From the NCBI GenBank assembly GCA_040754375.1, contig JBFMCT010000030.1, positions 1 through 40,991 of the forward strand: a stretch of DNA of 40,991 bases. Reading direction: 5' to 3'. The notes beneath the pieces are model-generated. The model saw nothing but the letters and a program-made list of their open reading frames with translations, made no database searches and was not told the DNA's origin. The position numbers and the translations under genes are program-made. This DNA comes from Actinomycetota bacterium. Its GTDB lineage: Bacteria > Actinomycetota > Acidimicrobiia > Acidimicrobiales > AC-14. Below, piece by piece: positions 8,814 through 27,542 of this stretch; the stretch's first letter is position 1; each line of letters starts with the position of its first letter.

Positions 8814-8842
8814 AGCGGGCGGCGGCGGCGCCCCGCCTCAGC

Positions 8843-9694: not shown

Positions 9695-9800
9695 CCGCTC
9701 ACCCCACTGACCCCCGTTTGCGTGGGATCTCGACCGGTCCCATGACCATCTGTGCCCTCGTCTCGCCTCCGGGCGGGCGCCTTCGGTATTGTCGGGCGCG

Positions 9801-10166
9801 ATGTCGGAGTTCCTTCGCCAGTACCTCACGGTAGCCATCTTCGGCCTGACCGCCGTGGTGATGGTCGGGGCCATGCTCGGGCTGGGCCGGCTGCTGCGTC
9901 CCGTCCGCCCCCAGCCCCAGAAGGGGATCAACTACGAGTCGGGTGTCGACCCCGTGGGGACGGGCTGGTCCCAGAGCCAGATCCGCTACTACGTGTTCGC
10001 CCTGCTGTTCGTGATGTTCGACGTCGAGGCGGTGTTCATCTTCCCTTGGGCCACCCGGCTCGAGGTCATGGGCCTGTTCGGCCTCGTCGAGATGGGCATC
10101 TTCATCGTCATCCTCGCCCTGGGTTTGGTCTACGCCTGGCGCAAGGGTGTCCTCCGTTGGGCCTGA
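9801..10166 (+). CDS. nuoA: NADH-quinone oxidoreductase subunit A
   Basis: NuoA is a small three-helix membrane subunit near the quinone chamber and the junction of the two complex I arms. The 121 residues include GINYESGVDPVGTGWSQ, the conserved loop of this subunit with Ser in place of the mitochondrial Cys, and RYYVFALLFVMFDVEAVFIF in helix 2. ATG 9801 is chosen; an in-frame TTG at 9789 would add only four residues. There is no Shine-Dalgarno, but TATTGT at 9787-9792 is a candidate -10 box eight bases upstream, so a leaderless mRNA is possible. It begins the nuoABCD run and is divergent from the protease gene. Confidence 0.93.
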   Translation: MSEFLRQYLTVAIFGLTAVVMVGAMLGLGRLLRPVRPQPQKGINYESGVDPVGTGWSQSQIRYYVFALLFVMFDVEAVFIFPWATRLEVMGLFGLVEMGIFIVILALGLVYAWRKGVLRWA

Positions 10167-10178
10167 GGGGACCATAAC

Positions 10179-10691
10179 TTGGGAATCGTCGAGAAGGGGA
10201 CCCTCAACAAGAAGGTCTTCAAGCCGCTCACCCACCTGCTCAACTACAGCCGGAAGTACTCGCTGTGGGTCTACCAGTGGGGCCTGGCGTGCTGTGCCAT
10301 CGAGATGGGGGCGGCCTTTGCCTCCCCCCGCTACGACGTGATGCGCCTGGGGGTCATCCCCTTCCCGGCCGGTCCTCGCCAGGCTGACCTGGTCGTGATC
10401 TCGGGCACGGTCACCGACAAGATGGCCCCGCCCATCCGCCGGCTGTGGGAGCAGATGCCCGACCCCAAGTACGTCATCTCCATGGGCTCGTGCGCCAACT
10501 GCGGAGGCCCCTACTGGGACTCCTACTCGGTGACCAAGGGGGTCGACCAGATCATCCCCGTCGACGTCTACGTGCCCGGTTGCCCGCCACGGCCCGAGGC
10601 CCTGCTGGAGGGGATCGTGCTGCTCCAGCAGCGCATCCAGAACGAGGACATGGCCGAGCGCTGGAAGGGAGAACCGATTGTCGTCGGTTGA
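10179..10691 (+). CDS. nuoB: NADH-quinone oxidoreductase subunit B
   Basis: NuoB holds iron-sulfur cluster N2, which passes electrons to quinone. The 170-residue protein starts with TTG, preceded by GAGGGGA at suitable spacing. The N2 ligands are present: the tandem Cys38-Cys39 in [12 protein letters not shown], Cys105 in MGSCANCGG and Cys135 in [10 protein letters not shown]. An additional Cys108 replaces the more usual Gly in the GSCAN-G-GG stretch. Length and motif order are those of the family. The gene lies 12 bases after nuoA and overlaps nuoC by 14 bases, so translation is coupled. There are no signs of decay. Confidence 0.96.
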
Positions 10692-11388
10692 GCCTGAGAC
10701 GACCGAGGCCGAAGAGCCCACCCCCGAGGCCCCGCCGCCCGACCCCTACCTCGACGTGCTCGAGGCCCTGCGGGCCGACCTGGGCGGCGCCCTCGTGGGC
10801 TCGCTCACCCAGAGGGGCGACCTGTGGGTGCGGGTCCACCCGGACCGGTGGAAGCGGGCCGCCGAGGTCCTGCGCCACCAACTGGGCTTCGACTACTTCT
10901 GCTTCCTGTCGGCCGTCGACTGGATGCCCCACACCTGGCCCAACCCCAAGGTCGTGGAAGGCGAGGGCGACGGCGACGGCGATGCGGAGCCCGAGCCCGA
11001 ACCGGTGGCCGAGATGCAGACCGGGGTCACGGGCGGGGACAGCCGCTTCCAGGTGCTGGCCCGGGTCTACTCGACTACCCGCCACCTCGGGGTCTTCCTC
11101 AAGGCCGACCTCGACGCCGAGACCCCCCGGGTGGAGACATGGTCGGAGGTCTACGCGGGCGCCGACTGGCACGAGCGCGAGACCTGGGAGATGTACGGCT
11201 TCGACTTCGTCGGCCACCCCAATCTCTCCCACCTGTACCTCCCGGGCGACTTCGAGGGGTTCCCCCTGCGCAAGGACTTCCCCTTGCTGTCCCGTGAGGT
11301 CAAGCCCTGGCCCGGCCTGGTCGACGTCGAGGGGTTCCCGGCCGGCTACGGCGCCGAGGAAGCGGCCGCCGAAGGAGGCGCGAGCTGA
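10678..11388 (+). CDS. nuoC: NADH-quinone oxidoreductase subunit C
   Basis: NuoC is a peripheral-arm subunit that packs against NuoD. The 236 residues begin with a TTG inside the end of nuoB. Family motifs are [38 protein letters not shown] and the signature [10 protein letters not shown] near the C-terminus. A strongly acidic insert ([17 protein letters not shown], about residues 96-112) splits the alpha/beta domain, and an acidic Pro-rich N-terminal tail of about 25 residues is also extra. Both are probably surface loops. It is separate from nuoD, unlike the fused NuoCD of enterobacteria, and overlaps nuoD by one base. Confidence 0.93.
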
Positions 11389-12557
11389 TGTCGGTCACCG
11401 AGACCCAACGCCTGTCCTACATCGCCGCCCAGGCGGCCGAGGCGCGGGTCAACGTCGAGCTCCAGACCGAGCAGATGACCCTCAACCTCGGCCCCCAGCA
11501 CCCGGCCACCCACGGCACGCTGCGCCTGATCGCCAAGCTCGACGGTGAGCAGGTCGTGTCGGCCGACGTGATGTGCGGTTACATGCACCGCGGCTACGAG
11601 AAGCTGGCCGAGGTCCGCACCTACCCCCAGATCACGACGCTGGTCAACCGCATCGACTGGCTCTCGTCGTTCGCCAACGAGGTGCCCTTCATCCTGGCCG
11701 CCGAGCAGTTGATGGAGGTCGAGGCCCCACCGCGGGCGCAGTACATCCGCACCGCCCTGTTCGAGATGAGCCGCATCGCCAACATCACCCTGTTCATCGG
11801 GGAGATGGGCGTGCAGCTCGGGGCCATCACCCCGGTGTTCATGGCCTTTCGCGACCGGGAGTACGTGCTCAACCTCATCGAGGCGGCCACCGGTGGTCGC
11901 TTCCACCCCAACTTCGACCGCATTGGCGGGCTCAAGGACGACCTGCCCCGGGGCTGGGTGGCCGAGACCCGCCAGGTCATGGTCAAGATCCGCGAGTACT
12001 GCGACCAGCTCGAAGACCTGCTGATGGGCAACGAGATCTTCGAGAAGCGCACGAGGGGCGTCGGCGTCATCCCTGCCGAGGTCGGCTTGGCCTACGGGCT
12101 CTCGGGGGCCAACATCCGAGCCAGCGGGGTCGACTGGGACCTGCGCCGTGACGCGCCGTCGCCGCTGGTGTGGAAGGACCTCGACTGGAAGGTGTGGACC
12201 CACCCCGACGGCGACTCGTTCGCCCGGTACTGGGTCCGGCTGCAAGAGACCCGCGAGGCGACCAGGATCGTCGAGCAGTGCCTGGACGGGCTGCCCGCCG
12301 GGCCCATCCAGGCCAAGGTACCCCGCATCATCAAGGTGCCGGCGGGCGAGGCCTGGGTCGGCACCGAGAACCCCCTGGGCGAGATGGGCTACTACATAGT
12401 CAGCCAGGGCGGCCTCGGGCCCTTCCGGGTCAAGATCCGCTCGGCCTCGTTCAACAACGTCTCGATCATCCCGTGGGTCCTCAAGGGCGTGTACGTGCCT
12501 GACATCGTCACGATCCTGGCCAGCCTCTACTTCATCCTCGGCGACATCGACCGCTGA
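11388..12557 (+). CDS. nuoD: NADH-quinone oxidoreductase subunit D with altered quinone-site residues
   Basis: NuoD, the 49-kDa-type subunit, forms the quinone pocket with NuoB and NuoH. The 389-residue protein has normal length and motifs: NLGPQHPATHG, HRGYEKLAEVRTYPQ, NRIDWLSSFANE, QLGAITPVF, GRFHPNFDRIGG, SGANIRASGVDWDLRR and ILGDIDR at the end. Compared by eye with the human 49-kDa subunit, His59 (here His42) and Arg85 (here Arg68) are kept, but the quinone-binding Tyr108 aligns with Trp91, and Asp160 aligns with the Gln of VQLGAITP. Both are normally strongly conserved. The reading frame is intact. The gene ends the ABCD run; nuoE, F and G do not follow. Confidence 0.95.
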   Translation: MSVTETQRLSYIAAQAAEARVNVELQTEQMTLNLGPQHPATHGTLRLIAKLDGEQVVSADVMCGYMHRGYEKLAEVRTYPQITTLVNRIDWLSSFANEVPFILAAEQLMEVEAPPRAQYIRTALFEMSRIANITLFIGEMGVQLGAITPVFMAFRDREYVLNLIEAATGGRFHPNFDRIGGLKDDLPRGWVAETRQVMVKIREYCDQLEDLLMGNEIFEKRTRGVGVIPAEVGLAYGLSGANIRASGVDWDLRRDAPSPLVWKDLDWKVWTHPDGDSFARYWVRLQETREATRIVEQCLDGLPAGPIQAKVPRIIKVPAGEAWVGTENPLGEMGYYIVSQGGLGPFRVKIRSASFNNVSIIPWVLKGVYVPDIVTILASLYFILGDIDR

Positions 12558-12633
12558 CCATCCCCTCGTAGGGGGACGGGCCCGGGCGAGCACGGCTGCA
12601 GGCCCGCGTGCGCTCCGCGAGCATCTCGACGCG

Positions 12634-12804: not shown

Positions 12805-13148
12805 GTGCGGATGATCATGCCGTCCACCACTTCGTGGGCCAACACCTCGACACAGTCGAGGACCCGGTCGCCGGCGTGGGCGCGGACGTGCTGCACCTGC
12901 ACCGCGCCCCAGTCGCTGCCCAGAGTGTCGATCAGCTCCAGGGCGAGGGTGCCACCTGACAGCTCGTAGGACCGGGCCAGGAAGCCGAGGATCTCGGCGC
13001 GGCCCTTGTACAGCCCGGCGATGCGGGATCGCCCTGGCAGGTCCCACGTCGCGTCGTCGGCGAAGTGGGCACCGACAGCGGCCAGGTCACCTCGGGTGAA
13101 GCTGTCGACGAGCATGCGAGCCAGCACGGCGTTGGGGTGTTCGTTCAC
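12759..13148 (-). CDS. SnoaL-like / NTF2-fold protein
   Basis: The 129-residue protein starts at a GTG with an AGGAG seven bases upstream. It has the SnoaL-like layout: an N-terminal helix (AVLARMLVDSFTRGDLAAVGAHFADDATWDLPG is split by the usual FADD-x-x-W motif), GLYKGRAEILGFL, then strands ending in YHRPDQYAIEAFF. Members are cone-shaped proteins that isomerise or hydrolyse small molecules, or only bind ligands, and the reaction cannot be told from sequence. It lies downstream of the LuxR/LAL regulator on the same strand, 132 bases away, so it may be controlled by or with that regulator. Both are inverted within the nuo locus. Confidence 0.75.
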   Translation of the reverse strand: MNEHPNAVLARMLVDSFTRGDLAAVGAHFADDATWDLPGRSRIAGLYKGRAEILGFLARSYELSGGTLALELIDTLGSDWGAVQVQHVRAHAGDRVLDCVEVLAHEVVDGMIIRTYHRPDQYAIEAFFG

Positions 13149-13208
13149 GTTGGTCTCCTCTCACGTTGTGTGGATGGGAGAAGCATGCGCCGGGACCGCG
13201 CGCCCCAC

Positions 13209-13226
13209 ACCGGCCGGATGGCCGGT
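13209..13226. terminator. Short perfect hairpin between regulator and SnoaL-like gene
   Basis: ACCGGCC and GGCCGGT form a perfect 7-bp stem around a 4-base loop. It lies after the regulator stop (13281) and before the SnoaL-like start (13148). It could end or attenuate regulator transcription, or serve as an operator. There is no U-run on the minus strand, so the terminator label is tentative. Confidence 0.35.
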
Positions 13227-13280
13227 TTAGGCGATCGGTCGCCGCCCGATTCGCCTCGGGTCCGCAGCCCCCGAGGGAAG

Positions 13281-16082
13281 CTACGCGCGCGGGCGGACGG
13301 CCAGCGTGGCCAGCTGCGTGCGATTGCTGGCGCCGGTCTTGGCCAGGAGGCTCTCGATGTGCCCTTTGACGGTGCGGGGCGAGACGTACAGCCGCTCGGC
13401 AATGACGCGATTGGTGAGTCCCTCGGCAAGCAGTCGGAGAACGTCGACCTCACGGCTTGTGACACCCATGGCGGTGAGGTGGGCGGGGACGGCCGAAGCG
13501 CCCCGGCCGGCCCTCCGTTCGGGTACGCCCGCTCGCCGGGCGAGCGACCGGCATGCTCCCGCCGCTGTTACCAGCCCCCGCTCCCCGAACCAGGCGGCCG
13601 CCTCGACCAGCCACTCCGCCGGCTGTCCCCAGCCCTGATCGAGGGCGGCTTCGGCGGCCAGGCGCCGTCCCAGGTGGACGTAGCCGGCGAACGCAGGCAC
13701 CAGGCGGAAGCAGGCGCCCGCCCGGTCGAGAGCGGCTTGCGCGGCCGGCGCGTCACCCGCTCGGCCGCGCGCCACCGCCTCCGCCATGTGCCACAGCCCG
13801 TCCGGGCCGGTGGCCAGGCGTAGGTCGGCAGTGTCAGTCTCCGCTCGCGCCCGGGCGCCGCCGTCGCCTTCGAGGTCGAGACAAGTGGAGAGCAGCGGCC
13901 AGAGGTACCAGGGGGGAAGGGGAGTCGGGCCGGGAAGCCGTCGCAGCGCTGCGATGGCCTCCCTCCACTCGGCGATCGCCCGGTCGCGGTCTTCGACGAT
14001 GAGCGACGCCAGGCCCCGAGCGGTGCCGACGGCCACCCCGATGACCTCGGGGTCGTCGCCTGCAAGGGTGAGCGCCTCGGCGGCCGCGGCCGTGGCGCGG
14101 ATGCGGTCCCCGGCGACGGCGTGGGCCTGGCCGATGAGGTTCCACGCCCAGGCCTCCTGGCGGCTGGCGCCCAGGCGCCGGGCGGTGTCGAGGCAACGAC
14201 GGGCGGCCGCCAGCGCCGCCTCGGGTTCGAACCGCACGCCGTGGACGGCGGCGAGGTGGAACTCGACCGCCGACAGCAGCCCCGGCGCGCTGGCGGCGAT
14301 CGCGGCCTGGCGTGCGTCTTCGAGCCCGGATATCGACAGCGTGCGCAGCTGGTCGATGGTCGCCAACTCGTGGTGCGCCCGGGCCCGCCAGAGGGCGAGG
14401 TCGTGCAGCTCGGCGGTGGCCGCGGCCCGTGAGAACCAGAATGCGGCCTCGTCGAGGTCGCGCCGGCGCCCTAGCCGGCCCAGCACCTCAGACGCCTCGC
14501 AGACCGCAGACGGCGGTGCGGAGCCGTCGGCCGCTGCACGTCGCGCCGACGCGTCGGCCTCCTCGAACCGCCCTAGCTCGAACGCCACCAAGGCTTCGAG
14601 CGAGCTTGCCGCACCGGGGACCTCGGCCAAGAGGGCGGCCGCCTCCGTCCAGCGCCCCGCATTGGCCGCGGCTCGCGCCATCGCCACGGTGCAGGCCCGG
14701 CGCCGCGCCGCGCTGGCGCCGGCGGTGGCCAGCTGGCGGCGGACGAGCTCTCCCTCGCTCCGGGCTCGCTCGGCGTCGCCGGCTAGGGCCAGGGCCTCGA
14801 GCAGCGCCTCTCGCCGCTCCAGCGAGGTGGCCGTCGGGGGGCTCAGCGCGAACGCCTGGTCGATGCACTCCACCGCGGCCGCCGGGTACCCCCGGTCAAG
14901 GTGGCGCCGTCCCGCCCGGTCGAGGAACGCTGCCGCCCGTTCGTGCTGACCGCCGGACGTGGCGAGCGCGGCGGCCAGCTCGAGGTCGCCGTCGCTGGGC
15001 GGGCGCGCCTCGAGAGCGGCCAGGAGCCGCAGCGCGATGGGTTGCAGCCGCGCCCCGGTCGCCGCCGCCAGCACCGCCTCTCTCACCAGGGCATGGGCGA
15101 ACCGCAGCGGGCCGGTCTCCCCCGGGGCGAGAAGGCCCAGGGGAACGGCGGCGAGGAGCGCGTCGTCCACCGCCTCGGCCCCCCCGGCGATCGCGGCCGC
15201 GAGGAGGGTCGCGTCGAACTCCTGACCGAGCAGGGCCGCCGCCTCGACAACCACCCGGACGTCGCCATCGAGCTCCCGTAGGCGGGCGGCGACGTTCTCG
15301 CCGACGCTGGGAGGGAGGGCCGCGCGCCCCGGGCGGAAGGTCCACCTGCCGTTCTGGCGGCAGAGCTCACCGCGCTGCTCGTAAGCGGTGAGCAACTCCT
15401 CGACGAACAGGGGTACTCCACCGGCTACCGCCACGGCCTCCATGAGCCGACCCGGCGGGTCCGCGCCCAAGCACGCGCTCACCAGGTCTCGAACCTCCGC
15501 GTCCGCGAGGGGGCCCAGCTCGATGAGAGAAGCTACGTGCCGTTGCACGAGGCGGCGCACCGCCGGCCAGACAGGTCCTTCGGGGCGCAATGTGCACAGG
15601 AGCGTGACGGTGCTGCCGTGGAGGGCGTCGGCCAGCGACTCGACCACGGCGGCCGTCTGGTGGTCGGCCCAGTGCAGGTCCTCCAGTACGAGGAGGGAGG
15701 GCGCCTTGCGCCCGATCGAGTCCCGCAGGCGCAGGACTGCGTCGGCGACCTGCAGCGGCGAGACTGGCTCGGCATCGCCGGGCCCGCCCACCATCCCGGG
15801 AAGTAGTACGGACAGGGCGTTGCCGTGAAGCGCCAGGCGCGGGTCGAGGAGGTGCCCGCCAGCCCGGATGAGAGCCAAGGCGAGCTCGGCCAACGGCCGC
15901 AGGGCGGGCGCCGGCGGTGGTGTGGCTCGCCCCCCGGTGGCTTCGGAAGGATCGGACGCGGCCTGGCGGACGAGCGTCGACTTTCCCATTCCTGCCCCGC
16001 CGGCGAGAACGACCGTGCCTGTCGCGTTGGCGAGGAGTTGGAGCTCGCCTTGGCGCCCTACGACCCGAGTGGCGCGCAGCAC
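13281..16082 (-). CDS. Large ATP-binding LuxR-family regulator (LAL type)
   Basis: The 933 residues (GTG start) have the LAL architecture. An N-terminal AAA-like ATPase carries Walker A GGAGMGKST (residues 28-36) and Walker B LLVLEDLHWAD. A long helical TPR-like middle with many Ala-rich repeats follows. The C-terminal LuxR helix-turn-helix spans about the last 62 residues, with TSREVDVLRLLAEGLTN, RVIAERLYVSPRTVKGHI and LLAKTGASNRTQL. Such proteins are ATP-dependent activators that often sense a small molecule; the signal is unknown here. It is inverted between nuoD and nuoH, with the SnoaL-like gene downstream. Control of the divergent nuoHIJKLMN set is possible but not shown. Confidence 0.88.
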   Translation of the reverse strand: MLRATRVVGRQGELQLLANATGTVVLAGGAGMGKSTLVRQAASDPSEATGGRATPPPAPALRPLAELALALIRAGGHLLDPRLALHGNALSVLLPGMVGGPGDAEPVSPLQVADAVLRLRDSIGRKAPSLLVLEDLHWADHQTAAVVESLADALHGSTVTLLCTLRPEGPVWPAVRRLVQRHVASLIELGPLADAEVRDLVSACLGADPPGRLMEAVAVAGGVPLFVEELLTAYEQRGELCRQNGRWTFRPGRAALPPSVGENVAARLRELDGDVRVVVEAAALLGQEFDATLLAAAIAGGAEAVDDALLAAVPLGLLAPGETGPLRFAHALVREAVLAAATGARLQPIALRLLAALEARPPSDGDLELAAALATSGGQHERAAAFLDRAGRRHLDRGYPAAAVECIDQAFALSPPTATSLERREALLEALALAGDAERARSEGELVRRQLATAGASAARRRACTVAMARAAANAGRWTEAAALLAEVPGAASSLEALVAFELGRFEEADASARRAAADGSAPPSAVCEASEVLGRLGRRRDLDEAAFWFSRAAATAELHDLALWRARAHHELATIDQLRTLSISGLEDARQAAIAASAPGLLSAVEFHLAAVHGVRFEPEAALAAARRCLDTARRLGASRQEAWAWNLIGQAHAVAGDRIRATAAAAEALTLAGDDPEVIGVAVGTARGLASLIVEDRDRAIAEWREAIAALRRLPGPTPLPPWYLWPLLSTCLDLEGDGGARARAETDTADLRLATGPDGLWHMAEAVARGRAGDAPAAQAALDRAGACFRLVPAFAGYVHLGRRLAAEAALDQGWGQPAEWLVEAAAWFGERGLVTAAGACRSLARRAGVPERRAGRGASAVPAHLTAMGVTSREVDVLRLLAEGLTNRVIAERLYVSPRTVKGHIESLLAKTGASNRTQLATLAVRPRA

Positions 16083-16332
16083 TGCGCCTACCTGCCCCCG
16101 GGCCGGCCGGCGCGGGCCGGGCGTCCGGCCGGCGGCCGGAATGGCGAAGGCGCCGGAGCTCGGGCCGTCGTCTGCACCTGTTCATCATGGCCCGAGGCGG
16201 GGCCGACCGGCGCGGCGCCGACGACGACCGCCTCGAGCGCGAGCTGGCCTAGCGCGAGGCCCGCACCACCGGCCCGCCTCCGCGGTGATCGCGGCTTGGG
16301 GTACGGGCCGTAGTTCCCGTCGGCCTTCGACC
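16083..16332. other. Intergenic region between divergent regulator and nuoH
   Basis: No credible gene is seen in these 250 bases. The part next to the regulator start is dense in GGCCGG/CCGGCC stretches that can fold into GC-rich hairpins (about 16095-16145). It presumably holds the regulator's promoter and any operator for the divergent nuoH transcript. Confidence 0.4.
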
Positions 16333-16362
16333 TTGTACCCGCCGGGGGCCGTTCTGTAGGCT
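16333..16362 (+). promoter_or_regulatory. Candidate promoter of nuoHIJKLMN
   Basis: TTGTAC (16333-16338) and TAGGCT (16357-16362) are separated by 18 bases and fit the actinobacterial housekeeping pattern TTGNNN / TANNNT. Transcription would start near 16369, leaving a short leader with GGAGGGG before nuoH. This means the H-N genes need not depend on read-through from nuoABCD. Confidence 0.45.
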
Positions 16363-16404
16363 CCGCCGCGTGGCAGGGTGGAGGGGTCTGAGGATGCGCG
16401 GCTG

Positions 16405-17433
16405 ATGCTCGCGCTCGACCTCAGTTACTGGCAGGCGACAGCGCTCAAGACGATCATCGTCTTGGCCATCATCCCTGGCAGCGCCGTTGTGATCGGCTAT
16501 GTCTTCCTGCTGAAGATGATGGCCCACATGCAGAGCCGGCTGGGCCCGATGGAGCCGGGTGGTTACCACGGCTGGTTCCAGCTGATCGGCGACGGCATCA
16601 AGTTCATGCAGAAGGAGGACCTGATACCGGCCCAGGCCGACCGGCGGGTCTTCGCCTGGGCGCCGGTGGTGGTGCTGGCCTCGACGTTCCTGCTCTACGT
16701 CGTGGTCCCCGCCGGGCCGAGGCTGGTCGTCGAGGACCTCGACGTCGGCATCTTCTTCGCCCTGGCGGTGTCGTCGCTGTCGGTCGTCGGGATCCTCATG
16801 GCCGGCTGGGCCTCGGCCAACAAGTACTCGCTGCTAGGTGCCCTGCGGGCCGCCGGCCAGCTCATCGCCTACGAGCTGCCCCTCGTGCTGGCCGTGGTCG
16901 GGGTGGTCATCCAGGCCGAGACCATGAGCCTGCAGGGGATCGTGCGGGCGCAGGCCGACGGGGCCATCTTCGGGATCAGCGCCTTCGGCAACCCGTTCGT
17001 GCTGACCCAGATCGTCGGTTTCCTGCTGTTCGTGGTCGCCGCCCAGGCGGAGCTCTCGCAGTCGCCGTTCGACATGCCGGTGGCCGAGTCGGAGCTGATC
17101 GCCGGCTACATGACCGAGTACTCGGGTTTTCGGTTCCTGTTCTTCTTCATGGCCGAGTTCGGCACGGCCTTCGCCCTGGCGGCCATCGCCTCCACGCTCT
17201 TCCTGGGCGGGTGGTGGGTGCCGGGGATCGACCCCACGAGCGGGCTGGCCGACGTCTTGGGGCCCATCGTGCTGGCCGCCAAGATCATGTTCGTCTCTTT
17301 CCTGATCTTCTGGATGCGCTTCACGTTCCCGCGCTTCCGTGAGGACCAGCTCCAGACGATCGCCTGGAAGTTCCTGATCCCCATCTCGCTCGTCAACATT
17401 GTCGTCACCGGCGTTCTGAAAGTTGCCTTCTGA
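16405..17433 (+). CDS. nuoH: NADH-quinone oxidoreductase subunit H
   Basis: NuoH (ND1 type) forms the membrane part of the quinone tunnel and the start of the E-channel. I prefer ATG 16405 (342 residues, [10 protein letters not shown]); an in-frame GTG at 16378 would add nine residues. Motifs are [39 protein letters not shown] with Glu157, [32 protein letters not shown] and [12 protein letters not shown]. The usual P-F-D-x-P-E-A-E-x-E motif here reads [10 protein letters not shown], so its first Glu is Val226. Eight transmembrane segments are expected. The gene starts the H-N run and overlaps nuoI by one base. Confidence 0.94.
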
Positions 17434-17912
17434 TGCCTGAAATCCCCGGCAAGGGCCTCATCAAGGGCCTAGGCGTGACCTTCAAGACCATGCTCGAGGG
17501 CGCGGTCACCGTTCAGTACCCCCACGAGAAGGAGGCCCCGCCCACCCGGGCACGTGGGGTGATCGCCCTCAAGGAGGAGAACTGCACGGTCTGCATGCTG
17601 TGCGCCCGCGAGTGCCCCGACTGGTGCATCTACATCGAGGGCCACAAGGAGAAGCGCCCTCCCCGCCGGGCGGGCGGCAAGCCCCGCACGGTCAACGCCC
17701 TCGACCGCTTCGACATCGACTACGCCCTGTGCATGTACTGCGGGATCTGCGTCGAGGTCTGCCCCTTCGACGCCCTCTTCTGGAGCCCTGAGTACGAGTA
17801 CTCCGAGCCCCGCATCGCCGACCTCCTCCACGACAAGGAGAAGCTGGGCGAGTGGATGGAGACCGTCCCCGAACCGCTGCCGCTCGAAGCCGGCGCGCAG
17901 AAGAAGAAGTAG
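17433..17912 (+). CDS. nuoI: NADH-quinone oxidoreductase subunit I (2x[4Fe-4S])
   Basis: NuoI carries clusters N6a and N6b in the electron path to N2. The 159 residues contain two ferredoxin motifs: Cys51, 54, 57 and 61 ([12 protein letters not shown]) and Cys100, 103, 106 and 110 ([12 protein letters not shown]). The linker between them ([15 protein letters not shown]) is unusually basic. The N-terminal amphipathic part that touches the membrane arm ([14 protein letters not shown]) is present, and the C-terminus is a short charged tail ending in lysines. The gene overlaps nuoH by one base. With no nuoEFG in the window, NuoI and NuoB are the only cluster-binding complex I subunits seen. Confidence 0.95.
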
Positions 17913-17926
17913 GTTCGCCCCGGCCG

Positions 17927-17971
17927 ATGGTTGCTCAGAGCATGGTGGCGCAGAGCATGGTCGCCCAGAAC
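17927..17971 (+). repeat. Three 15-bp tandem repeats at the nuoJ start
   Basis: Three imperfect 15-base units, each starting with ATGGT and encoding M-V-A-Q-S/N, lie end to end. Every unit offers an in-frame start codon. The units differ at only a few positions, mostly third codon positions. Confidence 0.85.
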
Positions 17972-18448
17972 GTCGTCTTCGGCATCCTGGCCTTCGTCAT
18001 GGTGGCCGCCGCCTTCCGGCTGGTGACGACCAAGAACGTGGTGCGGGCCGCCCTGTTCCTGGCCATCGTGCTGGCCGGCGCGGCCGGCCAGTTCCTGCTG
18101 GTGGCCGCCGAGTTCGTGGCCGTCGTCCAGATCCTGGTCTACATCGGGGCCGTGGTCGTGCTGCTGCTGTTCGGGGTGATGCTCACCCGTGCCCCGATCG
18201 GCCAGGACGCAGACCTCGACAACGATCAACGGTGGCTGGGAGGGCTCGTGGCCCTCTTCCTGTTCGGTGTGCTGGCGGCCGTGCTCACCGACGCCTGGGG
18301 GAGCCAGAAGATCGAGTTCGGCGAGATCCGCCGAGTCGACCAGGTGAGCGACGCCATCTTCGGTCCTTACCTGGTCCCCTTCGAGGTCGTGTCCGTCCTC
18401 ATCCTGGCCGCTCTGGTGGGCGCTGTCGCCATCTCGAGGAGGGACTGA
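17927..18448 (+). CDS. nuoJ: NADH-quinone oxidoreductase subunit J
   Basis: NuoJ (ND6 type) is a membrane-arm subunit whose third helix has the pi-bulge near the E-channel. The 173-residue protein from ATG 17927 has five hydrophobic segments. The conserved region [29 protein letters not shown] is followed by [18 protein letters not shown]. The first 15 residues are a threefold repeat beginning MVAQ, so three in-frame ATGs (17927, 17942, 17957) are possible starts. The last gives a more typical N-terminus. It lies 14 bases after nuoI and 5 before nuoK. Confidence 0.92.
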
Positions 18449-18453
18449 GGGGT

Positions 18454-18753
18454 ATGTTCCTCAACCAGTTCCTACTTCTGGCGGCCGTGCTCTTCTGCCT
18501 GGGCGTCTACGGCGTGCTCTCCCGCAAGAACGCCGTGCTCGTGCTCATGTCGGTCGAGTTGATGCTCAACGCCGTGAACATCAACCTTCTGGCCTTCGGC
18601 GCCTTCCAGGACAACATCACCGGCCAGGTGTTCGCCCTGTTCGTGATCGCCGTGGCGGCCGCCGAGGTCGGCGTGGGCCTGGCCATCGTGCTCGTCATAT
18701 TCCGCAACCGAGCGAGCATCGACCTTGACAAGGCCGATCTCATGAAGGGCTAG
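18454..18753 (+). CDS. nuoK: NADH-quinone oxidoreductase subunit K
   Basis: NuoK (ND4L type) is a three-helix subunit with two membrane-buried glutamates on the proton path. The 99 residues start [14 protein letters not shown] (ATG 18454, preceded by GAGGGG). They contain [17 protein letters not shown], with the first conserved Glu, and [18 protein letters not shown], with the second. Both glutamates are therefore intact. Length is normal. It sits between nuoJ and nuoL in the standard order. Confidence 0.95.
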
Positions 18754-18763
18754 GCGGCCACCG

Positions 18764-20731
18764 ATGCTCGAGAACGCCTGGCTCATCCCGCTCATACCAG
18801 CCATCTCGTTCTTCCTGATCCTGTTCTTCGGCAAGCGGATGCCCAAGAAGGGTTCGGAGATCGGGATCCTGGCCATCGCCTCGTCGGCCGCCATGGCCTT
18901 CGCGGCTGCCTTCGAGTGGATCAGCCAGAGCGATCCCCACGAGGTTCACCGCCATACCACCTGGTTCGAGATCGGGCGGGCCGACATCGGGGTCGGCATC
19001 CATGTCGACGGGCTCACGGTGATGATGCTCGTGGTCGTCACGTTCATCTCGCTGATGGTCCAGATCTACTCCTTGGGCTACATGCACGGCGACCGCCGGT
19101 TCACCTACTTCTACGCCGCCCTGTCGCTGTTCACGGCGTCGATGCTCCTGCTGGTCGTGGCCGACAACACCCTGCAGCTCATGATCGGCTGGGAGCTGGT
19201 GGGCCTGTGCTCGTTCATGCTGATCGGCCACTGGTGGGAGGAGGGCGTCAACTCCGACGCCGCCATCAAGGCGTTCATCACCACCCGCACCGGTGACGTC
19301 GGCCTCCTGCTGGGCGTGACCGTGCTGTTCTTCGCGGCCGGGCAGAACTTCGAGATAGCCAACCTCAACCGCCTGGCCCTGACCGAGGGCATCAGCCACG
19401 GTGTGCTGCTGGCCGGGGCCACCCTGCTGTTCATCGGCGTGATGGGCAAGAGCGCCCAGTTCCCCCTGCACGTCTGGCTGCCCGACGCCATGGCCGGCCC
19501 CACCCCGGTGTCGGCGCTCATCCACGCGGCCACCATGGTCGTGGCCGGCGTCTACCTGGTGGCCCGCCTCTACGGGGTGTTCTGGTCGGCCTTCTCGATC
19601 GACGTGGGGGGCATCAACCTCATCGCCCTCATCGGCGGGATCACGGTGATCATCGCCGCCCTGCTGGCCTTCGTGCAGGACGACGTGAAGAAGGTGCTGG
19701 CCTACTCCACGGTCAGCCAGCTCGGCTACATGGTCATGGCCCTCGGCGTGGGGGCGTGGGTGGCGGCCGTGTTCCACCTGTTCACCCACGCCTTCTTCAA
19801 GGCCAACCTGTTCCTGGGGTCGGGTTCGCTGATCCACGCCGTGCACTCCAACAACATGAGCGATATGGGTGGGCTGCGAAAACACATGCCCACGACCTTC
19901 TGGACGTTCATGGTCGGGTCGATCGCGCTGGCCGGCATCCCCCCCCTGGCCGGGTTCTGGTCAAAGGACGAGATCCTCAATGGTGCCCTGGCCGAGGGCT
20001 ACCCACTGTTCCTGGTGGTCGGGCTCATCGGGGCCTTCATGACAGCCGCCTACATGACCAGGGCCTGCTACAAGATCTTCTGGGGTGAGTACCGGGGCCA
20101 TGGCCACCCCCACGAGTCGCCCCCTTCGATGGCCTGGCCGCTGCGCATCCTGGGCGGGCTGTCGATCGTCGTCGGCCTGCTCAACGCTCCCGGCATCCTG
20201 CTGTTCGGCGACTGGGTCCACTTCCACGTCGAGGGCGCACCCGAGATCCTGCACCACCACGACTTCAACGTGGGGTTGGCCGCCACATCGGTCGTCGTCG
20301 CCCTTCTGGGCATCGCCGCCTCGGCCGCCTACTACATGAAGGGCTCGTTCAACGGGTTGACCCAGCGGGTGGGGGCCCTACGGACAGGGCACAAGGTCCT
20401 CGTCAACAAGTACTACCTCGACGAGCTGTTCATCGAGGGGATCGTCCGCAAGATCCAGTACCCGATCGCCAAGGCGGCCTACTGGGTCAACCAGAAGGTG
20501 CTCGACGGGGCGGTCAACGCCGTGGGCATCGGGGCCAAGCGGACGGCCCGGGTCACTTACGAGTACATCGACCAGATGGTCATCGACGGTGCCGTCAACG
20601 GTGCCGGGTTGTCGGCCGAGGAGGGCGGCGCCGCCCTCCGCAAGACCCAGACCGGGCGGGTCCAGCAGTACGCCGCCTACTTGTTTGGCGCGTCAGCCCT
20701 GCTGGCCCTGGTCCTGGTGTTCCTTACCTAG
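18764..20731 (+). CDS. nuoL: NADH-quinone oxidoreductase subunit L, copy 2
   Basis: This is the NuoL in the standard nuoJ-K-L-M-N order. The 655 residues contain IGWELVGLCSFMLIGHWW (TM5 Glu), GKSAQFPLHVWLPDAMAGP (TM7 Lys), HAATMVVAGVYLVAR, KKVLAYSTVSQLGYMVMAL, HAFFKANLFLGSGSLIHA and GFWSKDEILN. After the antiporter core come YYLDELFIEGIVRK and a long lateral helix region to a final transmembrane segment. It lacks the large His-rich loop of copy 1. Two similar stretches (VLDGAVNAVGI and VIDGAVNGAGL, about 33 residues apart) occur in the C-terminal part. It lies 10 bases after nuoK and 6 before nuoM. Confidence 0.95.
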   Translation: MLENAWLIPLIPAISFFLILFFGKRMPKKGSEIGILAIASSAAMAFAAAFEWISQSDPHEVHRHTTWFEIGRADIGVGIHVDGLTVMMLVVVTFISLMVQIYSLGYMHGDRRFTYFYAALSLFTASMLLLVVADNTLQLMIGWELVGLCSFMLIGHWWEEGVNSDAAIKAFITTRTGDVGLLLGVTVLFFAAGQNFEIANLNRLALTEGISHGVLLAGATLLFIGVMGKSAQFPLHVWLPDAMAGPTPVSALIHAATMVVAGVYLVARLYGVFWSAFSIDVGGINLIALIGGITVIIAALLAFVQDDVKKVLAYSTVSQLGYMVMALGVGAWVAAVFHLFTHAFFKANLFLGSGSLIHAVHSNNMSDMGGLRKHMPTTFWTFMVGSIALAGIPPLAGFWSKDEILNGALAEGYPLFLVVGLIGAFMTAAYMTRACYKIFWGEYRGHGHPHESPPSMAWPLRILGGLSIVVGLLNAPGILLFGDWVHFHVEGAPEILHHHDFNVGLAATSVVVALLGIAASAAYYMKGSFNGLTQRVGALRTGHKVLVNKYYLDELFIEGIVRKIQYPIAKAAYWVNQKVLDGAVNAVGIGAKRTARVTYEYIDQMVIDGAVNGAGLSAEEGGAALRKTQTGRVQQYAAYLFGASALLALVLVFLT

Positions 20732-20737
20732 GAGACG

Positions 20738-22279
20738 GTGTTGAACGGATTCGATAGTTGGGCACTGACCCTGGCCATCTTCCTGCCGGCGGCCGGGGCG
20801 GTGTTCGTCGCCATGGTGCCCCGGTCGGAAGAGACGATCCTCAAGTCGGTGGCCCTGCTGTTCACGCTGGCCACGGCGGCCGTGTGCACCTACATGCTGG
20901 TCAACTTCGACTTCGACCAGACGGCCCGGCTGCAGTTCGTGGTCGACAACCGTTGGATCGAGGTCATCAACAGTCGCTACCACATCGCCCTCGACGGCAT
21001 CTCCCTGCCGCTGATGTTGCTGTCGGCCGGGATCACGGTCCTGTGCGTCATCTACTCGTGGGACCACTTCCCCGAGCCGCACAACCCCAAGGCGTTCCTG
21101 ATGCTGATGCTCATCCTCGAGACGGGCATGATCGGCACCTTCGCAGCCCAGGACCTGATCCTCTTCTTCGTCTTCTTCGAGCTGGTCCTGCTCCCGATGT
21201 ACTTCATGATCGGGGTGTGGGGCGGGCCCAACCGCCAGTACGCGGCCATCAAGTTCTTCCTGTACACGCTGTTCGGCTCGGCCCTGATGATCCTGTCGTT
21301 CCTGGCCCTCTACTTCCAGGGTGGGCAGACGTTCGACATCCCCGAGCTCACGACCACTGGCGCGGCCATCGCCCGGAGCACCCAGATCCTGATCTTCGGC
21401 GGCCTCTTCATGGGCTTTGCCATCAAGGTGCCCATGTTCCCGTTCCACACGTGGCTGCCCGACGCCCACACCGAGGCGCCCACGGTCGGCTCGGTCCTGC
21501 TGGCGGCCGTGCTCCTGAAGCTGGGCACCTACGGCTTCATCCGCATCGCCATCCCCATCCTGCCCGAGGCGGCCCGGGCCTGGGCCCCGTGGATCGGGCT
21601 GCTGGCGGTGATCGGCATCATCTACGGGGCGCTCGGCTGTCTGGCCCAGACCGACATGAAACGGCTGATCGCCTTCAGCTCGGTGGCCCACATGGGCTTT
21701 GTGATGCTGGGCATCTCCACCCTGACCTCGTTCGGCATCAACGCCGCCGTGTTCGGCATGGTGGCCCACGGGCTCATCACCGGGATGCTCTTCTTCGTGG
21801 CCGGCTCGATCCAGGAACGGTTCAAGACCCGTGAGCTGGCCCGCCTGGGAGGGCTGCTGACCCAGGCCCCCAAGCTGGGGTGGATCCTGGGGTTCTCGGC
21901 CTTCGCCTCCCTGGGCCTGCCTGGGCTAGCCGGGTTCTGGGGCGAGTTCCCGGCCATCCTGTCGGCCTATCAACCGGCGGCCGGGCTGAGCGAGCCCATC
22001 TTCCGTACCTACATGGCGGTGGCCGCCATCGGCACGGTGTTTGCCGCCGGCTACCTGCTGTGGATGCTCCAGCGGGTGGCCTTCGGCACGGTCAAGACCG
22101 AGTTCGAGGCCGAGCACATCCACGACGTGCACGGCCCCGAGTGGATCGCGTGGACGCCCATCCTGGTCCTCATCTTGGTCTTCGGCATCTTCCCGGGCCT
22201 CATCTTCGACATCACCGACGGGGCCGTCCAGCTCGTGACCCGGGGCGTCGACGCCATCGGCGTCGCGGCCGGGCGTTGA
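20738..22279 (+). CDS. nuoM: NADH-quinone oxidoreductase subunit M, copy 2
   Basis: This is NuoM of the standard run, with 513 residues. The start is GTG 20738 or the adjacent TTG 20741; the AGGAGA at 20730-20735 slightly favours the TTG. It has FFELVLLPMYFMIGVWGG (TM5 Glu), IKVPMFPFHTWLPDAHTEAP (TM7 Lys), LLKLGTYGFIR, TDMKRLIAFSSVAHMGFVML and LPGLAGFWGEFPAIL. About 14 hydrophobic segments fit the antiporter fold. It shares the core with copy 1 at 5778 but differs through much of the rest, including the N-terminus and the loop after TM5. It lies 6 bases after nuoL. Confidence 0.95.
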   Translation: MLNGFDSWALTLAIFLPAAGAVFVAMVPRSEETILKSVALLFTLATAAVCTYMLVNFDFDQTARLQFVVDNRWIEVINSRYHIALDGISLPLMLLSAGITVLCVIYSWDHFPEPHNPKAFLMLMLILETGMIGTFAAQDLILFFVFFELVLLPMYFMIGVWGGPNRQYAAIKFFLYTLFGSALMILSFLALYFQGGQTFDIPELTTTGAAIARSTQILIFGGLFMGFAIKVPMFPFHTWLPDAHTEAPTVGSVLLAAVLLKLGTYGFIRIAIPILPEAARAWAPWIGLLAVIGIIYGALGCLAQTDMKRLIAFSSVAHMGFVMLGISTLTSFGINAAVFGMVAHGLITGMLFFVAGSIQERFKTRELARLGGLLTQAPKLGWILGFSAFASLGLPGLAGFWGEFPAILSAYQPAAGLSEPIFRTYMAVAAIGTVFAAGYLLWMLQRVAFGTVKTEFEAEHIHDVHGPEWIAWTPILVLILVFGIFPGLIFDITDGAVQLVTRGVDAIGVAAGR

Positions 22280-22298
22280 CGGGGAGCATGTCGCGCTG

Positions 22299-23786
22299 AT
22301 GCTGGCTTTCACCGCCCCGACGCTCGACTACCACGCGCTGGCGCCCGAGATCATCCTGCTCGTCACGCTGTGCACGGTGTTGCTGGCCGACCTGTTCGTG
22401 AGCCGCGAGCGCAAGTGGATCGTCGTCAACCTGGCCAGCTTCGGCCTCCTGGTCGCCTTGGTCCCCGTGGTCACCCTGGCCGTGAGCGATGCCGACGCCC
22501 GGTCGATGTTCGGCGGGGCCTTCGTGGTCGACCAGTTCGCACTGGTGCTCAAGGGCCTGTTCCTGGTGACGGCCTACATCGTGCTGCTGATGTCGGCCCG
22601 TTACATCGAAGAGGGCGACTACTACGAGGGGGAGTACTACTTCCTCGTCCTGTGCTCGGTACTGGGCATGGTCGTCATGTCGTCGTCGCGTGACCTCATC
22701 ACGATCTTCGTCGCCCTCGAGACGCTGTCGATCCCCGGCTACCTGCTGGCCGGCTGGCGCAAGCGCGACCTGAAGAGCAACGAGGCCGCCCTCAAGTACT
22801 ACCTGCTGGGCGTGCTGGCCTCGGCCGTGATGCTCTACGGGATGTCGCTGGTCTACGGGTTCACGGGCTCGACCCTGCTCACCGATATCGGCAGCGCGGT
22901 GGCCGGCTCGGTCGCCGCCCAGCCAGTGGTGAGCGTGGCCATCCTGTTCATCGTCGTGGGCTTCGCCTTCAAGGTGTCGGCTGTGCCCTTCCACTTCTGG
23001 GCGCCCGACACCTACGAGGGCTCTCCCACTCCGGTCACCGCCTTCCTGTCGGTGGCCTCCAAGACGGGCGGGTTCGTCGCCCTCTTCCAACTCATCTACG
23101 TGGGCTTCTTCGGACGCGACGACGTGTGGGCACCGGTGTTCTGGGTGCTGGCCGCCCTGTCGATGACCGTGGGCAACCTCATCGCCCTGCGCCAGACGAA
23201 CATCGTGCGCATGCTGGCCTACTCGTCGGTGGCCCAGGCCGGCTACATCCTGGTGCCCTTCGCAGTGGCCGCCACCAACGAGACGGCCGCCCGCTCGGCG
23301 TTCACCGCATCGGTTGTCTACCTGTTGGTCTACGCGGCCATGAACCTGGGGGCCTTCACCGTCATCATCGCCGTGGCCCGCAAGACCCGCTCGGGAGAGA
23401 TCTCGTCCTATGGCGGGTTGTTCGAGTACGCCCCCGGGCTGGCCGTGCTCATGACGCTGTTCATGTTCTCCCTGGCCGGCATCCCGCCCCTGGCCGGTGC
23501 CTGGGCAAAGATCTTCGTGTTCCGGGCCGTGATCGACGCGGGGACGGCGTGGGCCATCGTCCTGGGTGTGATCGCGGCCGTGAACTCGGTCATCGCGCTG
23601 TTCTATTACGCGGCCGTGGCCAAGGAGATGTGGATGAACCCCGTGCCCGACGGCGACAAGACACCCATCGCCGTGCCGACGTCGCTGACGGCCGCCCTGG
23701 GCCTCACCGCCGCCGTGGTGCTGGTGATCGGGGTCTACCCCCAGCTCTTCGCCCGGCTCGGCGACCTCGCACCCTTCGTGCGCTGA
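22299..23786 (+). CDS. nuoN: NADH-quinone oxidoreductase subunit N, copy 2
   Basis: This NuoN (495 residues) closes the standard run. Motifs are ALETLSIPGYLLAGW (TM5 Glu), FKVSAVPFHFWAPDTYEGSP, TNIVRMLAYSSVAQAGYIL and AGIPPLAGAWAKIFVF. The N-terminus YHALAPEIILLVTL is typical. The lysine-bearing TM12 region is more like other bacterial NuoN than that of copy 1. The MidA-type methyltransferase gene starts seven bases after the stop, so it is probably in the same transcript. Confidence 0.94.
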   Translation: MLAFTAPTLDYHALAPEIILLVTLCTVLLADLFVSRERKWIVVNLASFGLLVALVPVVTLAVSDADARSMFGGAFVVDQFALVLKGLFLVTAYIVLLMSARYIEEGDYYEGEYYFLVLCSVLGMVVMSSSRDLITIFVALETLSIPGYLLAGWRKRDLKSNEAALKYYLLGVLASAVMLYGMSLVYGFTGSTLLTDIGSAVAGSVAAQPVVSVAILFIVVGFAFKVSAVPFHFWAPDTYEGSPTPVTAFLSVASKTGGFVALFQLIYVGFFGRDDVWAPVFWVLAALSMTVGNLIALRQTNIVRMLAYSSVAQAGYILVPFAVAATNETAARSAFTASVVYLLVYAAMNLGAFTVIIAVARKTRSGEISSYGGLFEYAPGLAVLMTLFMFSLAGIPPLAGAWAKIFVFRAVIDAGTAWAIVLGVIAAVNSVIALFYYAAVAKEMWMNPVPDGDKTPIAVPTSLTAALGLTAAVVLVIGVYPQLFARLGDLAPFVR

Positions 23787-23793: not shown

Positions 23794-24933
23794 ATGGGGG
23801 AGGAGCTGACGGTCGCTCGGGCGGTGGCCGAGCGGGCCCGGCGCTCGGGGCCGTTGCGCTTCGACGAGGTGCTCGACCTGGCGCTCTATGGGCCCGGGGG
23901 CTTCTACTCGGCCGGTTCGGGCGCCGGCCGGGGCGGGGGTGACTTCATCACCAGCCCCGAGGTGGGCCCGCTGTTCGGCCGGGTCGTGGCCCGGGCGCTC
24001 GACTCCTGGTGGGCGGCCCTGGGCCGGCCTGACCCCTACGTGGTCGTCGAGGCCGGTGCCGGTGCCGGCGCGCTGGCGGCCGCTGTCCTGGCCGCAGCAC
24101 CCGAGTGCTCGCCTGCCCTGCGTTACGTGCTGGTCGAGCGCTCGGAGGCATGGCGGCAGGCCCAGTCCCGGCGCCTGGCCCTCGAGCCCGCCGGCCTCGT
24201 CCTCGGCCCGGTGGTGGCGGCCGACCCCGACCTCGGTCCCCGGGCCGTGCCCGGGAGCGGGCCACTGGTCACGGCTTTGGCCGAGCTGCCGGCCGGGCCG
24301 TTCGAGGGCGTGGTCATGGCCAACGAGCTGCTCGACAACCTGCCGTTCCGTCTACTCGAACGTTCGCCCTCGGGGCGCTGGTCCGAGATCAGGGTGGGGG
24401 CCGACCTGGCCGAGGTGGTGGTGTCCGCGCCGCCCGACGTGGCCTCCGAGGCGGGCGAGCTGGCCCCGGACGCGCCCGCCGGGGGGCGCCTACCGCTCCA
24501 GCACCACGCCCGGGCCTGGCTGCGGGAGGCCCTGGCCGCCCTCGAACGGGGCCGGGTGGTGGTGGTCGACTACGCCGACACCACCGCCTCGATGGCCGCC
24601 CGGCCGTGGTCGCAATGGCTGCGGACCTACCGGGGCCACGGCCGGGGTGGCCACCCCCTCGAAGCCCTGGGCGCCCAGGACGTGACGTGCGAGGTGGCCG
24701 CCGACCAGTTGGCGGCCGTGGCCCGTCCCGTGAACGACCGCAGCCAGGCCGAGTTCCTACGGGCCCACGGGCTCGACGAGGTGGTCGACGATGCCCGCCG
24801 GCGGTGGGAGGAGCGGGCCCACGTCGGCGACCTCGAGGCCCTCCGCCACCGCAGCGTCCTGTCGGAGGCGGCCGCCCTCACCGATCCCCGGGGCTTGGGG
24901 GCCTTCCGGGTCTTGGAGTGGGAGGTTGGGTAG
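23794..24933 (+). CDS. MidA/NDUFAF7-family SAM-dependent methyltransferase
   Basis: The 379-residue protein fits the DUF185/MidA family (class I methyltransferase fold). Family motifs are GPGGFYS, GDFITSPEVGPLFG, the SAM-binding EAGAGAG, ANELLDNLPFRLLE (post-I acidic loop) and WLRTYRGH near the C-terminus. In mitochondria, NDUFAF7 of this family symmetrically dimethylates an arginine of the 49-kDa subunit early in complex I assembly. Here the gene lies seven bases after nuoN, and NuoD in the same locus keeps the corresponding arginine (Arg68). A complex I assembly role is therefore a reasonable inference, though bacterial members are mostly untested and protein substrates other than NuoD are possible. 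Confidence 0.87.
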   Translation: MGEELTVARAVAERARRSGPLRFDEVLDLALYGPGGFYSAGSGAGRGGGDFITSPEVGPLFGRVVARALDSWWAALGRPDPYVVVEAGAGAGALAAAVLAAAPECSPALRYVLVERSEAWRQAQSRRLALEPAGLVLGPVVAADPDLGPRAVPGSGPLVTALAELPAGPFEGVVMANELLDNLPFRLLERSPSGRWSEIRVGADLAEVVVSAPPDVASEAGELAPDAPAGGRLPLQHHARAWLREALAALERGRVVVVDYADTTASMAARPWSQWLRTYRGHGRGGHPLEALGAQDVTCEVAADQLAAVARPVNDRSQAEFLRAHGLDEVVDDARRRWEERAHVGDLEALRHRSVLSEAAALTDPRGLGAFRVLEWEVG

Positions 24934-24943: not shown

Positions 24944-25540
24944 GTGGAACCTCCGTCGCGCGATCCCTCCGACCGACCGCCTCCGCCCTCGGTCCCGCCC
25001 CCCCCGCCGTCCTCGTCGTCCGACGGGCTCCCGGCCCCCGACGCCCGCCAGGCCGCCGACTGGCCGCCACCCCCGCCCGACGCCGCCCCCTCCAAGGTCG
25101 GGCAGCCGGCGGCGTGGTGGCGACGGGTCATCGCCTACTTCGTGGACGGGCTCATCGTGGGCGCGCCCCTCGTGGTACTGGGTATTTCGCTGGGCTTGGC
25201 CGAGTTCGTACGCGACGGGGACATGGTCCGCTTCGAGGCCCAGCCCCTGCTCCTGATGCTGTCGGTGGCCGCTACCGTGGGCTACTCGGCCCTCATGGAC
25301 GGGGGCCCGCGCCAGGCATCGGTGGGCAAGATGGCCATGCGCGTGCTGGTGGCCGACGCCGACACGGGCGGGGCCATCGGCCCACGCCGGGCCGCCCTCC
25401 GCCGCCTCGTGTACCTCGGTCTGTTCTACGCCTTCGTGATCCCGGGAGTGGTCAACGCCCTGTCCCCGCTGTGGGACCGCCGCCGCCAGGCCTTCCACGA
25501 CCGGGCCGTGCGCAGCGTGGTCGTCAACGCCCCGGCCTAG
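24944..25540 (+). CDS. RDD-family integral membrane protein
   Basis: The GTG at 24944 gives 198 residues. The first 55 or so are a Pro/Ser-rich cytoplasmic tail ([11 protein letters not shown]) often seen before RDD domains in Actinobacteria. The RDD domain starts with [20 protein letters not shown], in which the Arg and Asp name the family. It then has [34 protein letters not shown] and [12 protein letters not shown]. Three or four transmembrane helices are predicted by eye. The function of most RDD proteins is unknown; some are linked to ion transport. It starts 10 bases after the methyltransferase gene. Confidence 0.82.
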
Positions 25541-25580: not shown

Positions 25581-27542
25581 GTGGCGGAGGACCAGGTCAC
25601 GATCGAAGACCTCTACGTCGAGGACCGGACGTTCCCGCCGCCCGAGCACTTCAAGGGCCAGGCCCTGGTCGTCGACCAATGGATGTACGACGACGCCAAC
25701 CGAGACTATGAGGGCTTTTGGGCCCGCCAGGCGGCTGACCTGCTCGACTGGTACGACGACTGGCACACGATCTTGGACTGGGCCCCGCCCTTCGCCCAGT
25801 GGTTCGTGGGCGGCCGGCTCAACGTGGCCCACAACTGCCTCGACCGCCACGTCGATGCCGGCCGGGGCGACCGCGTGGCCTACCACTGGGAGGGCGAACC
25901 GGGTGACACCCGCACGATCACCTACGCCGAGCTGCGCGACGAGGTGGCCCGCTTCGCCAACGTGCTCAAGGGCCTGGGGGTCAGCCGGGGTGACCGGGTG
26001 GCCATCTACATGCCGATGATCCCCGAGCTGCCGGTGGCCATGCTGGCGTGTGCCCGCATCGGGGCGGCCCACTCGGTGGTGTTCGGGGGGTTCTCGTCCG
26101 AGGCCCTGCGCGACCGCATCAACGACGCCGACGCGGCCGTCGTGGTGACGGCCGACGGCGGGTGGCGGCGAGGCCGGTCCGTCCCCCTCAAGGCCAACGC
26201 CGACGCCGCCCTGGAGGGCACGCCGTCGGTGCGCCACGCGGTGGTCGTGCGCCGCACCGGTGTGGACGTGACCATGGTCGACGGCCGCGATCTCTGGTAC
26301 CACGACCTGATGGCCGGCGCGTCGGCCGACTGCCCCCCCGAAGCGATGGACAGCGAGGACCTTCTGTACCTGCTGTACACCTCGGGGACGACGGCCAAGC
26401 CCAAGGGCATCATGCACACGACGGGCGGGTACCTGACCCAGGTGGCGTTCACGCACCGCTACGTGTTCGACCTCCACGCCGACACTGACGTCTACTGGTG
26501 CGCGGCCGACATCGGATGGGTCACGGGCCACAGCTACATCGTGTACGGCCCCCTGGCCAACGGCGCCACCTCGGTGATGTACGAGGGCACGCCCGACCAC
26601 CCCGGCCGTGACCGCTGGTGGCAGATCGTGGAGCGCTACGGGGTGACCAAGCTGTACACCGCGCCGACGGCCATCCGCACCTTCATGAAGTGGGGTGTCG
26701 AGCACCCTGCCGCCCACGACCTGTCGTCGCTCCAGCTGCTGGGGACGGTGGGCGAGCCCATCAACCCCGAGGCCTGGGTCTGGTACCACGAGAACATCGG
26801 CGGGGGACGGTGCCCGGTCGTGGACACGTGGTGGCAGACCGAGACGGGCGCCATCATGATCGCCCCCCTGCCGGGGGCCACCACCCTCAAGCCGGGCTCG
26901 GCCACCTTTCCCCTGCCCGGCATCGGCGCCGAGGTCGTGGACGAGGCCGGCCAGCCCGTGAAGGTGGGCGGCGGGTACATGACGCTCACCCACCCGTGGC
27001 CCTCGATGCTCCGCGGCATCTACGGAGACCCCGAGCGCTACCGCCAGACCTACTGGTCGCGTTTTGAGGGTCGCTACTTCGCGGGCGACGGGGCCAAGCT
27101 CGACGACGACGGCTACGTGTGGTTCCTGGGCCGGGTCGACGACGTGATGAACGTGTCGGGCCACCGGGTGTCGACCACCGAGGTCGAGTCGGCCCTCGTC
27201 GACCACCCGTCGGTGGCCGAGGCGGCCGTCGTGGGGGCCAAGGACGACACGACCGGCCAGGCCATCGTCGCCTTCGTGACCCTCAGAGGGGGTGAGCTCG
27301 GCGGCACCGAGCACGGAGAGGCCCTGCGGCGCCACGTAGCCGCCAAGATCGGGCCCATCGCCCGGCCCAGGACCGTCATCTTCACCGACGACCTGCCCAA
27401 GACCCGCAGCGGCAAGATCATGCGCCGCCTGCTGCGAGACGTGGCCGACGGGCGCGACCTGGGCGACACGACGACGCTGGCCGACCCGGCGGTGGTCGAG
27501 GAGATCCGCGAGCGCGCCCACGTGGCCCCCGCCGAGGAATGA
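25581..27542 (+). CDS. acs: Acetyl-CoA synthetase (AMP-forming)
   Basis: Acs makes acetyl-CoA from acetate, ATP and CoA through an acetyl-adenylate. The 653 residues (GTG start, AGGAGG eight bases upstream) match the family length. Motifs are [11 protein letters not shown] (AMP-binding P-loop), [65 protein letters not shown] and the C-terminal [13 protein letters not shown]. That last motif contains the lysine whose acetylation switches off Acs in other bacteria. The acetate-pocket Trp (WWQTETG) suggests a small acyl substrate. The next gene overlaps by four bases (ATGA). Confidence 0.95.

Follow-up and report, generated by a model that had tools for sequence, protein, structure and literature searches.

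A MidA/NDUFAF7-family methyltransferase gene behind a second complex I operon covaries with arginine-type NuoD in actinobacteria

The window analysed here is a stretch of 40,991 nucleotides from an actinobacterium of the order Acidimicrobiales (contig JBFMCT010000030.1, assembly GCA_040754375.1). It carries a complex I gene set made up of nuoA-D (9789-12557) and nuoH-N (16378-23786), and no nuoE, nuoF or nuoG was found for this set in the open reading frame list of the window (Table 1). A first nuoLMN at 3802-8813 precedes this second set, to which nuoN2 and midA belong. The initial annotation had recognised a homologue of NDUFAF7/MidA directly after nuoN, and our analysis confirms it: the spacer between the nuoN2 stop (23786) and the midA start is 7 nt, and the product matches PF02636 (Methyltransf_28) at 7e-33, with 114.5 bits against a Pfam cut-off of 23.3.

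Table 1. Features of the second complex I cluster and its surroundings in the window.
Feature	Position	Strand	Basis or remark
nuoA2	9789..10166	+	position, tblastn against relatives' clusters
nuoB2	10179..10691	+	NF005012, 1e-65
NuoB2 Thr77 codon (ISGTVTDKM)	10407..10409	+	partner site of the intersubunit Arg switch; structural equivalence with Thermus Nqo6 R83 from PMC8042128
nuoC2	10678..11388	+	TIGR01961, 1e-27
nuoD2 (49-kDa subunit, Arg type, proposed substrate)	11388..12557	+	PF00346, 1e-77
NuoD2 Arg68 codon (GYMHRGYEK)	11589..11591	+	corresponds in the alignment to the NDUFS2 Arg that is dimethylated
nuoH2	16378..17433	+	PF00146, 2e-97
nuoI2	17433..17912	+	TIGR01971, 4e-28
nuoJ2 (start approximate)	17930..18448	+	ORF position, comparison with relatives' clusters
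nuoK2 (start approximate)	18454..18753	+	ORF position, comparison with relatives' clusters
nuoL2	18764..20731	+	PF00361/PF00662
nuoM2	20738..22279	+	TIGR01972, 3e-169
nuoN2	22299..23786	+	TIGR01770, 4e-123, 412 bits, over cut-off
midA (MidA/NDUFAF7-family SAM-dependent methyltransferase)	23794..24933	+	379 aa, ATG start
RDD-family protein, between midA and acs	24944..25540	+	PF06271, 2.6e-18

Several features of the surroundings deserve a brief description. About 3.8 kb (12558-16377) lie between nuoD2 and nuoH2 in the window, while in relatives (locus L244) the two genes are nearly adjacent; this gap holds minus-strand ORFs with a LuxR-like (13281-16082) and a SnoaL-like (12759-13148) look. 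The distance from NuoD2 to MidA is 11.4 kb in the window and mostly 7.5-8.4 kb elsewhere. Between nuoN1 and nuoA2, a minus-strand ORF (8843-9931) contains a zinc-protease motif, HELGHLLGLGH, as read by eye. Downstream of midA lies an acetyl-CoA synthetase gene (acs, 25581-27542), which raises the possibility of a tie between acetate activation and the second complex I.

midA is the only gene in the genome that matches PF02636; no NCBIfam name was obtained for its product. The AlphaFold model of the protein has a mean pLDDT of 91, and a Foldseek search with it returned Dictyostelium MidA (5zu0, E 1.2e-22) and the bacterial structure 4f3n as the best matches. The six highest-ranking matches all belong to MidA/COG1565 (E 1e-22 to 1e-18), the strong ones include Burkholderia COG1565 and Rhodopseudomonas DUF185 proteins, and folds other than MidA begin only at 1e-5. 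A profile built from the MidA alignment also finds the Dictyostelium NDUFAF7 structure 5ztz at 5e-48. Across 23 diverse members of the family, G90, NE..D.LP (177-184), D259-Y260 and D296-T298 are invariant, and the stretch ANELLDNLP (176-184) is invariant or nearly so. Within the SAM-binding glycine motif EAGAGAG (88-94) the glycines vary, with G90 invariant and G92 nearly so, and the D-x-T motif is retained in the window protein as DVT. Its placement in the MidA/NDUFAF7 family is secure. Two MidA copies are present in some genomes of families f72 and f68 (G222, G213 and G237), perhaps with different substrates.

The genome encodes two NuoDs, one in the window (nuoD2) and one on contig C56. 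The C56 cluster (2746-13606) runs from nuoA to nuoK, with ORFs in the places of E, F and G, of which 8145-8420 matches NuoF; no nuoLMN was found on this contig. A separate nuoLMN is present in the window, which suggests that this genome has its canonical nuo operon in two pieces; G087 is an example of a relative in which both nuo operons lie together. The NuoF-like domain PF10589 occurs at five sites of the genome, on five contigs, one of them within the canonical C56 cluster. The four loci outside it could encode electron-input partners for the complex without nuoEFG; likewise, the second complex I could borrow EFG from C56.

The two NuoDs differ at the residue that corresponds to the methylated arginine of mitochondria. 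As the initial annotation had pointed out, NuoD2 keeps this arginine (Arg68 in MHRGYEK), whereas the C56 NuoD has threonine at the same site (LHTGMEK). The same difference was seen across the clusters read: arginine was found in 36/36 second-type NuoDs read and threonine in 30/30 canonical ones, and a wider set gave HTG in 97 of 98 canonical NuoDs, the remaining one being unread. In Thermus complex I, NuoD has threonine, and an arginine from NuoB fills the same space (PMC8042128). The matching NuoB position is threonine in window-type clusters and arginine in canonical-type clusters. Among the distinct clusters checked, about 59 combine NuoD-Arg with NuoB-Thr, 28 combine NuoD-Thr with NuoB-Arg, and none is mixed (the raw counts, 64 and 29, are higher because a few clusters were read twice). 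Therefore, both states of the switch are present in one cell. The residue following the target arginine is less constant. It is alanine or serine rather than glycine in several MidA-positive genomes, and a requirement for glycine at this position was rejected because HRA and HRS occur there. HRA, HRS or HRC in place of HRG was seen in NuoD2 at eight loci, with and without MidA.

Among 148 genomes of the class Acidimicrobiia, MidA is present in 125 and Arg-type NuoD2 in 131, where genomes without a direct residue read were typed by the score of their NuoD match to the window NuoD. Both are present in 124 genomes and neither in 16; NuoD2 occurs alone in 7 and MidA alone in 1 (Fisher 4e-15). The co-occurrence of midA with nuo genes, which the initial annotation had suggested as a test, is thus borne out, with eight mismatches, and in a more specific form, as MidA tracks Arg-type NuoD2 and not complex I generally. 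Seven of these eight mismatches trace to contig breaks: in 6/7 NuoD2-only genomes contigs break off within the nuo2 operon and do not reach midA, and in the sole MidA-only genome a small contig carries MidA behind nuoN2. In the 92 cases with MidA and NuoD2 on the same contig, the two are always on the same strand and in 86 of them at most 15 kb apart. The initial annotation had described a complex I assembly role as rarely visible from gene order, but nuoN2-midA adjacency is common, with 53/67 among the cases with a listed same-contig nuoN and 68/76 in named contigs. Nevertheless, because acs is also conserved 3' of midA in most loci of the class, adjacency inside the class is the weaker evidence, being partly inherited synteny, and we downgraded it as sole proof of an enzyme-target link.

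Outside the class, NuoD residues were read for 75 genomes of a phylum set of 298. Arg-type NuoD was found in 38/40 MidA-positive and 22/35 MidA-negative genomes (Fisher 0.0009). For MidA-positive genomes without a strong NuoD2 match, a prediction had been set beforehand, and HR was found in all 7 of f63 and G277. The two exceptions, G213 and G293, carry MidA with only Thr-type NuoD found; one family mate of G213 has an Arg-type NuoD, and G293 stays unexplained. In phylogeny-controlled contrasts on a phylum-wide tree of canonical NuoDs, eight independent pairs differed in Arg-type NuoD, and MidA changed the same way in 5.6 and the opposite way in 0.1 of them on average (median p 0.03, range 0.016-0.22). 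The idea that MidA follows any complex I was rejected, since Thr-only genomes are nearly always without MidA. Conversely, MidA is not obligatory for an Arg-type NuoD, because many such NuoDs occur without it. The same facts bear on the arginine itself, which the initial annotation had taken as support for the enzyme-target link. The proposed link is supported, through covariation with Arg-type NuoD2, but conservation of the arginine was rejected as proof of it: Arg-type NuoD without MidA is common, and the corresponding arginine of E. coli NuoCD is unmethylated (PMC3750175). No PF02636 protein was found in E. coli, one of 14 control genomes outside the phylum.

midA was also found 0.2-7 kb from nuoD2 in 27 genomes belonging to seven further actinobacterial families, where the two genes are arranged in tandem, convergently or divergently. 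In 10 of these genomes nuoB2 is on that contig but at a distance of 125-413 kb, and in the others for which its position was determined it is on a different contig; therefore, nuoD2 has left the rest of the operon. Around five of the nuoD2-midA pairs, no other nuo genes were found within 8.5-18 kb. Such pairing is a more direct link between MidA and nuoD2 itself than a place in the same operon.

Based on these findings, we propose with good confidence that MidA is a protein arginine methyltransferase of the NDUFAF7 type that is dedicated to the second complex I and symmetrically dimethylates Arg68 of NuoD2 early in assembly of the Q module. In this scheme, which transfers the chemistry and the assembly role from the eukaryotic enzyme, MidA would use SAM to dimethylate Arg68, a residue expected to lie at the NuoD/NuoB interface next to the Fe-S cluster N2. 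The methylation may occur early during Q-module assembly, as with NDUFAF7 acting on NDUFS2; human NDUFAF7 methylates the equivalent arginine of that subunit (PMC3829151). The C56 complex I would offer no substrate at this site, because its NuoD has threonine there and the arginine is in NuoB instead. In bacteria, symmetric dimethylation of Paracoccus NuoD was detected by mass spectrometry (PMC3750175), and a review cites structural evidence for alphaproteobacterial MidA (PMC9006661).

Other explanations for the same data have to be weighed. MidA could be an assembly factor whose modification falls elsewhere in the second complex, on a different residue or subunit such as an arginine of NuoB2, with the NuoD-Arg covariation reflecting only which complex is served. 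The Arg/Thr state is indeed fully linked to complex type in the phylum, so that covariation by itself does not distinguish between residue and complex. However, MidA stays beside nuoD2 after nuoD2 left nuoB2 in the seven families, the NuoDs of f63, for all their distance from that of the window, have HR together with MidA, and it is the equivalent arginine that human NDUFAF7 targets; we therefore judge this explanation unlikely. A merely conserved gene order, with an enzyme whose target has nothing to do with complex I, would fit the presence of acs, a gene with no obvious link to complex I, after midA in most loci, as well as the exceptions G213 and G293 and the duplicated MidA of f72 and G213. 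It is hard to reconcile with joint presence and absence on independent branches, and with separate nuoD2-midA pairings in all three orientations elsewhere in the phylum, and we regard it as quite improbable.

MidA might also serve as a chaperone-like binder of NuoD2, with methylation weak or absent in these bacteria. The function of prokaryotic MidA is, according to a 2025 paper (PMC12455994), inferred only in silico, which leaves room for such a role. On the other side stand the residues invariant across the 23 members and the structure of a Burkholderia relative, 4g67, which is labelled a likely methyl transferase in the PDB; a binder of this kind appears very improbable. Returning to methylation of Arg68, we lean slightly toward a broader proposal: where an actinobacterium has two complexes I, methylation at N2 would be confined to the Arg-type one and carried out by a MidA that stays with nuoD2 even outside the operon. 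The two opposite switch states in one cell, one of them tuned by methylation, may then lead to differences in N2 potential or quinone preference between the two enzymes.

The enzyme family, the modified residue and methylation in a bacterium (Paracoccus) are already known. In the literature that we covered, which is incomplete, we found no earlier account of the actinobacterial MidA pairing, of a cell whose two complexes I hold the switch in opposite states or of the covariation, and nothing on actinobacterial MidA or the mycobacterial N2 arginine. The need of complex I for a dimethylated arginine at N2 is hard to explain from mitochondria, where the residue and its modification are not easily separated. 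Actinobacteria in which only one of the two complexes I of a cell could be methylated would provide a natural control, and loss of MidA need not disable the canonical respiratory chain. The covariation also offers a simple genomic rule for finding bacteria that could carry the modification, and the pairing of MidA with Arg-type NuoD brings an otherwise untested modification of a bacterial protein within easy reach of experiment.

Compared with known systems, the proposed pair resembles human and Dictyostelium NDUFAF7 (MidA; 5ztz/5zu0) in fold, in family and in a target arginine within the HRG motif of NuoD/NDUFS2, although the structural alignment with 5zu0 shows 20% sequence identity. Unlike NDUFAF7, midA of the window is part of a nuo operon; this operon encodes a second complex I, has no nuoEFG and stands in a genome whose other complex I carries threonine at the target site. 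Alphaproteobacterial MidA and the dimethylated NuoD of Paracoccus denitrificans are likewise comparable, with a bacterial NuoD that has HRG; the window gene is actinobacterial, and here the link was deduced from covariation between genomes and from the pairing of the genes. The canonical C56 complex is in the same state as complex I of Thermus thermophilus (Thr in NuoD, Arg in NuoB), whereas the window complex is in the opposite, mitochondria-like state. Finally, the 11-subunit complex I-like enzymes without an NADH module, of the Desulfitobacterium type, share clusters without nuoEFG (PMC11238625); compared with these, the window genome differs in having an additional full complex I and midA after the cluster.
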